Source: Bifidobacterium breve
Lineage (GTDB): Bacteria; Actinomycetota; Actinomycetes; Nanopelagicales; Nanopelagicaceae
Direction of reading: 5' to 3'
DNA length: 64,000 bases
Assembly: GCA_945883725.1 (NCBI GenBank)
Contig: CAMCXZ010000003.1
Location: 1 to 64,000 of the forward strand
Shown here: piece by piece, positions 51,382 to 54,133 of the stretch
Layout: every line of letters starts with the position of its first letter
Numbering within the stretch: position 1 is the stretch's first letter
Program-made: the position numbers and the translations under genes
The notes under the pieces: model-generated
What the model was told of the DNA's origin: nothing
Databases searched by the model: none
The model's input: the letters and a program-made list of their open reading frames with translations, nothing else

Positions 51382-51800
51382 TACTTACTTTCAGCTGTGA
51401 AACATGCTGAGCAAGTGCCATAAACAGCAAAGTGTGTGACATCTGTTTTAAAACCATAATCATCGGCTAGAGCATTTACAAAGTTAGCCGCAACATCTAT
51501 TGGTGCATCTCCTACGGATCCACAAGTGCCACAAACTAAATGTAGGTGGGTTAACTCTTCGGCGGCATGATAGGTAGCCCCGCCGTGGCCCAAGTGAGTG
51601 TGCTGAACTAATCCCACGTTCTCGAGGGTTTCTAAGTTGCGGTATACGGTTGAAAGGTTGATTCCGGGATGAGTTTGGCGAACTTTCTCAGCAACTTCTT
51701 CTGGTGTGGCATGTCCTAGTTCGCGAACAGCAGCTAAGACTAATTCTCGTTGCGGAGTTAAGCGCAATCCCTTATCGCGTAATTCATGCTGATCAGCCAT
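51381..51800 (-). CDS. Fur family transcriptional regulator
   Basis: LRLTPQRELVLAAVRELGHATPEEV, STVYRNLETLENVGLVQ, CGTCG and CSAC metal motifs. Confidence 0.93.
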   Translation of the reverse strand: MADQHELRDKGLRLTPQRELVLAAVRELGHATPEEVAEKVRQTHPGINLSTVYRNLETLENVGLVQHTHLGHGGATYHAAEELTHLHLVCGTCGSVGDAPIDVAANFVNALADDYGFKTDVTHFAVYGTCSACFTAESK

Positions 51801-51849
51801 GAGTCAATCTTACTTAGATTCTCATAAAAAGGGTTATCTGGTCGGCCGA

Positions 51850-52287: not shown

Positions 52288-52306
52288 CTGTTTCCTACTT
52301 TTCTTG

Positions 52307-52350
52307 GTTGTGGGTTACTAAAACTGGGTATTTTAAGTTTTAGTTACAAC
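52307..52350 (-). promoter_or_regulatory. Inverted repeat overlapping the Cys codons of the leader ORF
   Basis: Minus strand GTTGT-A-ACTAAAAC ... GTTTTAGT-AACCC-ACAAC. Confidence 0.5.
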
Positions 52351-52423
52351 ACAACGAGACAGCTAAACGTCCGTAATCAAGTACGCGACGCTTTGTGAAA
52401 AAGCTATCAAGTGCGAAAGACAT
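52340..52423 (-). CDS. Putative 27-aa leader peptide ending CCN
   Basis: MSFALDSFFTKRRVLDYGRLAVSLCCN*; TACTCT at -12..-7 from ATG suggests a leaderless transcript; upstream of DUF4395 gene. Confidence 0.7.
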   Translation of the reverse strand: MSFALDSFFTKRRVLDYGRLAVSLCCN

Positions 52424-52479
52424 GTAATAAGAGTAAAGAGGGCCGGTGAAAAAGCCTAATTGCGAGTCACTTGCAGGTG

Positions 52480-53662: not shown

Positions 53663-54133
53663 GTGCGCACGATTCTAAAACTGCATCTCTCTATTGCCGC
53701 TGACTTACCAGAGCCAAACACTTCAGCCGAGATAAGCACTTTCAAGTCGACTGATGCCGACGAATGGTTAGCGCTAAATAACGAGATTTTTATCGTGCAT
53801 CCCGACCAAGGTGATTGGGTTATGCAGGACTTAACTAATCGCATTAACGAAAGCTGGTTTGATGCCGATGGCTTCTTTCTGGCTAGAGATAAGGGCAAAA
53901 TAATTGGTTTTTGTTGGACAAAAATCCATAACGACCGAGTAAATGAAGGCGCTATTGGGGAAATTTATGTAATTGGCGTGAACCCAGATTCACATAGCTC
54001 CGGACTTGGTAAAGCCTTATTGCTTACCGCTCTGCGTTTTTTTCAAAGTAAAGGAATTAAAGAATCAATGCTCTACGTTGACGCCGATAACCATGCCGCC
54101 CTAATTCTTTATAAGAAACTAGGCTTCAACTAA
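53663..54133 (+). CDS. mshD: Single-GNAT-domain MshD-like mycothiol synthase (GTG start)
   Basis: GAIGEIYVIGVNPDSHSSGLGKALLLTALRFFQSKG, MLYVDADNHAALILYKKLGF resembles the MshD C-terminal half. Confidence 0.75.
   Translation: MRTILKLHLSIAADLPEPNTSAEISTFKSTDADEWLALNNEIFIVHPDQGDWVMQDLTNRINESWFDADGFFLARDKGKIIGFCWTKIHNDRVNEGAIGEIYVIGVNPDSHSSGLGKALLLTALRFFQSKGIKESMLYVDADNHAALILYKKLGFN

Follow-up and report, generated by a model that had tools for sequence, protein, structure and literature searches.

The window, by which we mean the whole 64,000-nucleotide stretch of DNA analysed, carries on its minus strand a thioredoxin-like gene (PF00085; 52480–52908) in the thiX position, a short open reading frame of 27 codons and a stop (MSFALDSFFTKRRVLDYGRLAVSLCCN*; 52340–52423) and a gene for a DUF4395 membrane protein (PF14340; 51850–52287), which has an invariant C-x-G-C-E and is the putative target of control. 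The short ORF had been picked out by an earlier, sequence-only reading, and it does lie at 52423–52340 between the two genes. Only about 50 nt separate it from the DUF4395 gene, whose ATG is preceded by AGGAAACAG and whose Shine-Dalgarno AGGA is at 52293–52296 (minus strand). Upstream and divergent are glnR (GlnR N-terminal domain) and an MshD-like gene. The latter (53663–54133, plus strand) encodes only 156 aa, matches the second half of mycothiol synthase and scores 157.7 bits against TIGR03448, whose cut-off is 163.1. A high-confidence predicted model of the DUF4395 protein (pLDDT 90.9) found no fold match in the PDB (best E 1.7).

We searched for DUF4395 in 60 relatives and in 298 genomes of the family, and read the upstream regions of about 110 loci, with an initial rule that required only KRRxxD in a short upstream ORF. 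Among named GTDB relatives, the genus of the window is placed with Candidatus Planktophila/Nanopelagicaceae. The leader is kept upstream of DUF4395 in most family members (freshwater acI, Candidatus Planktophila and relatives), and a recognisable form is found across the class; in most of the upstream regions it reads TKRR[VIH][ILV]D[YF]GR[LI]xxSLC[RCSLI]. For the peptide core, pN/pS rises from 0.03 within the window's own clade to 0.19 across the genus and 0.24 across the family. As judged from these alignments, the 27-codon ORF is a genuine conserved leader-peptide gene, and its peptide is under purifying selection.

The Cys at codon 25 (TGT; 52349–52351, minus strand), whose distance from the stop hardly varies, is present in all 72 family leaders compared. 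It corresponds to position 16 of the core, which, like Arg at position 10, is found in every one of the 72, in a comparison that itself required that Cys and Arg and that 77 of 79 detected leaders passed. The Cys at codon 26 (TGT; 52346–52348, minus strand) is replaced by Ser in most sister genomes. The window leader has two Cys, whereas 65 of the 72 relatives have a single one. In relatives, therefore, the ORF and one Cys are kept but the second is not, and the proposal that tandem Cys codons form a conserved sensor does not hold, since Cys-Cys occurs in just 4 of 72 leaders. This points instead to one invariant Cys together with the conserved KRRxxDxxR motif as the putative sensor.

A −10 hexamer of the TANNNT type (TACTCT; 52430–52435, minus strand) lies exactly at −12 to −7 from the leader ATG, as had been noted from the sequence, and is in the same place in most relatives. 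TANNNT stands exactly at −12 from 54 of 72 leader starts, compared with 3.3% of other ATGs. This geometry supports the suggested leaderless start, in which the first base of the leader ATG, at 52423, would be the +1. The Fur-family gene of the window (ATG at 51800) has TAAGAT at the equivalent place (51807–51812, minus strand; −12 to −7 from its ATG), and looks leaderless as well, with a promoter of its own. Given this putative promoter, an attenuator at the window locus would probably govern DUF4395 alone.

Where DUF4395 genes have no leader, TANNNT is found at −12 from the start of DUF4395 itself in 23 of 30 cases, suggesting that upon loss of the leader the DUF4395 ATG comes to occupy the leaderless position. 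In a phylogeny of 95 DUF4395 proteins (a short protein, with many weak forks) the presence or absence of the leader changes at least 13 times, 8 of these changes being forced by well-supported branches. Taken with the retained TANNNT, these changes suggest that the leader came and went as a unit while the promoter stayed. In one relative (G186) the leader is deleted and the promoter and the DUF4395 Shine-Dalgarno are left, a near-clean natural deletion; a Cys leader is still present at the sulfurtransferase gene of this genome. P. versatilis likewise has no leader at DUF4395, but it retains an exact copy of the KRRIIDYCR core found in a relative's sulfurtransferase leader.

The window's own genome contains exactly two matches to the DNA pattern for KRRxxD[YF][GC]R: the window leader and MYFTKRRVIDYCRITSTSC, a leader before an exported sulfurtransferase gene on another contig (G000:C4:49841 region). 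Here the transcript seems not to be leaderless, the second leader being preceded by a short 5′ UTR that carries a Shine-Dalgarno. Both Cys-leader loci, and their counterparts in relatives within the genus, share a 15-bp palindrome, TGCRA-N5-TYGCA, which matches at 8 to 10 of 10 fixed bases and starts about 40 bp from the −10 hexamer. The window copy (TGCAAGTGACTCGCA; 52461–52475, minus strand) lies 52 to 38 bp upstream of the putative +1, with the −10 at this fixed spacing, and the copy at the sulfurtransferase leader locus is at 1276–1290 of L228. The palindrome is a candidate operator of a sulfur regulon. It also precedes mec-cysO-cysM with the same geometry in the window's own genome; at that place it was seen in none of the relatives examined, and no wider regulon is claimed.

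The end of the leader and the spacer form a hairpin (52307–52355, minus strand), in which the Leu-Cys-Cys codons and the stop pair with the spacer. Its inverted repeat, GTTGTG..GT.ACTAAAACT / AGTTTTAGT.AC..CACAAC, takes in the first two bases of the Cys25 codon and the last two of Cys26, so that the Cys codons do lie, in part, in the 5′ arm, where they had been placed before. The interval from the Cys codon to the DUF4395 start folds more stably than it does once the spacer has been dinucleotide-shuffled (79 sequences, mean z −2.3, with p≤0.05 in 66%), and the Cys codon is paired in nearly all family members. A search of Rfam gave no match. Global alignment of 63 hairpin regions (MAFFT/RNAalifold) did not yield a consensus, as the loops and the upper stems vary by clade, and group alignments with an own-versus-foreign pairing test were used in its place. 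Own pairings between the coding end and the spacer beat swapped ones in 9 of 9 groups, foreign-clade spacers costing about 4.6 kcal/mol on average relative to the own spacer, and none of 20,000 permutations matched the own-spacer fit; in group g29/37 there was almost no margin. Between sister genomes of one group, TGTTGT/ACAAC becomes TGTCGT/ACGAC as the second Cys changes to Arg. These comparisons argue for a co-evolving hairpin tied to the Cys codons.

The repeat of the window's clade stops 19 nt short of the DUF4395 start codon and leaves the Shine-Dalgarno outside, so the ribosome-binding site would be little masked; placing a ribosome on Cys lowers its median opening energy from 3.5 to 2.6 kcal/mol. 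Occlusion of the Shine-Dalgarno is a weak effect here, and fits better in several sister clades and class relatives, where the pairing extends to the Shine-Dalgarno; in polycysteine relatives the Cys codons TGTTGCTG lie opposite CAGCAACAGGAG at this site. Of the earlier interpretation, a co-evolving hairpin that includes the Cys codons is supported; strong masking in the window's own clade is not.

Two other ways in which the leader could act bear on this region. Translation of the leader might govern transcriptional attenuation, Rho-dependent or intrinsic, and Rho was indeed proposed in 2005 for Cys leaders without obvious terminators (PMC1262725). However, a scan for promoter and terminator consensus sequences found nothing, including no terminator-like site in the interval, the hairpin is not followed by a U-run on its 3′ side, and it ends close to the ribosome-binding site; we regard control at this level as unlikely. 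Alternatively, the leader may simply bring ribosomes to DUF4395 or keep the mRNA open, with no sensing of cysteine. The shortness of the spacer agrees with this, and a role in handing ribosomes on to the following gene has been discussed for small leaderless ORFs (PMC4633059). Such coupling, however, leaves unexplained the invariant Cys at its nearly fixed distance from the stop, the Cys codon within a co-evolving hairpin, and the restriction of the leader to DUF4395 and sulfurtransferase genes, and we find it very improbable.

We compared the leader with known Cys leaders. The window peptide matches NF042933 (NCBIfam, the Ms5788A Cys-rich leader) with E=1.5e-4 and 21.3 bits, and its genus relatives score 19.6–29.4 bits; the curated NCBI cut-off is 45, so by this score the window peptide is no member. 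At E up to 10, NF042933 also matches in 8 of 14 control genomes, and weak genome-wide matches alone were therefore not used. Matches above the curated cut-off occur in 39 of 297 class genomes, and most of the readable ones among 30 such loci fetched precede DUF4395 or a rhodanese-type sulfurtransferase gene. Those before either gene carry the LTKRRAVDLCRV motif, and some class members have runs of up to seven Cys. The window leader, with its two Cys, does not have the run of several Cys codons typical of NF042933; it shares the locus and the motif, with intermediates leading to members above the cut-off. Since position, motif and intermediates agree, common descent with the Ms5788A leaders appears to be the simplest reading, and the proposed kinship with mycobacterial Cys leaders in a sulfur context is upheld.

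With the Ms5788A family (upstream of cysA2/Msmeg_5788) the window leader has in common the TKRRxxDxxR...C motif, a start that looks leaderless, the locus behind a thiX-like thioredoxin gene, the sulfur-linked downstream gene and Cys codons near the stop. Mycobacterial cysA2, too, presumably lies behind thiX (Rv0813c–Rv0819 order). The window leader differs in having one or two Cys and no Cys run, in its putative target, DUF4395, and in the AT-rich hairpin of its clade, which ends before the Shine-Dalgarno. In mycobacteria, a leaderless small ORF ending in Cys precedes cysA2 (PMC4633059). A second family, the putative leader peptide NF042934 (cis_reg_atten), is also short and has a similar R-x-x-D-x-x-R-x-x-S-x-x-C pattern; genus relatives reach 16–18 bits against it, below the cut-off of 27, and no match was reported for the window peptide itself. 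The LEU element upstream of leuA in Actinobacteria similarly pairs leader codons with the Shine-Dalgarno region of the gene that follows, but with leucine codons, a pseudoknot and a different gene, and its mutation data did not fit classical attenuation (PMC1262725). The window leader is best read as a single-Cys-type addition to the known Cys-leader attenuators.

The conserved ORF, the promoter geometry, the co-evolving hairpin and the kinship with Ms5788A leaders fit translational attenuation by a ribosome pause at Cys, as published for M. smegmatis (in passages of PMC9031893, PMC9094748 and PMC13236596 that cite Canestrari 2020). We consider it likely that the leader is a cysteine-responsive translational attenuator of DUF4395; that the ribosome stalls, that cysteine is the signal and that control runs in the direction described below is what we infer. 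As the promoter geometry suggests, the transcript would begin with the leader ATG itself, and ribosomes would load at this leaderless end and translate up to the invariant Cys codon, which in most leaders lies three codons ahead of the stop. With charged Cys-tRNA available, the ribosome would finish fast and the Cys/stop region would pair with the spacer again, the refolded hairpin disfavouring DUF4395 initiation. Under cysteine shortage the ribosome would dwell on the Cys codon and hold the hairpin open, allowing translation of DUF4395; a ribosome short of cysteine would probably, in this way, switch on a gene for a sulfur-linked membrane protein. Since a ribosome that has reached the stop codon opens the hairpin to much the same extent as one on Cys, the model rests on dwell time.

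A single conserved Cys codon would be a weak sensor of charging, which speaks against the attenuator. Judging by the spacing of residues, a leader reduced to one Cys and constrained at KRRxxDxxR might instead sense through its nascent chain: with the KRRxxDxxR stretch in the ribosome tunnel while the Cys codon is read, the peptide would cause a cysteine- or thiol-dependent arrest, with the Cys codon as the site of arrest rather than a meter of charging. Residues 6, 9, 12 and 13 before Cys are invariant while synonymous sites vary, the coding stretch for KRR..GR shows just a mild preference for RNA structure (mean z −0.82), one Cys suffices in most leaders, and the motif is seen again ahead of an unrelated gene. 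The published mycobacterial response, however, is ascribed to contiguous Cys codons (in the part of PMC9031893 that cites it), and KRRxxDxxR could be inherited without a role in arrest. We hold nascent-chain sensing to be doubtful, and charging-dependent attenuation remains our preferred reading.

A broader scenario, which we put forward tentatively, is that in streamlined freshwater Actinobacteria the polycysteine tract was cut to one Cys and sensing shifted to the nascent chain, as a cysteine- or thiol-dependent arrest peptide with a KRRxxDxxR tunnel motif. This peptide would act alongside one transcriptional operator common to the two sulfur loci, and would have given way several times to plain leaderless translation. 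The several lineages that have lost the leader in nature but still have the promoter provide ready-made comparisons, and the single-Cys form makes codon sensing versus peptide sensing directly testable.
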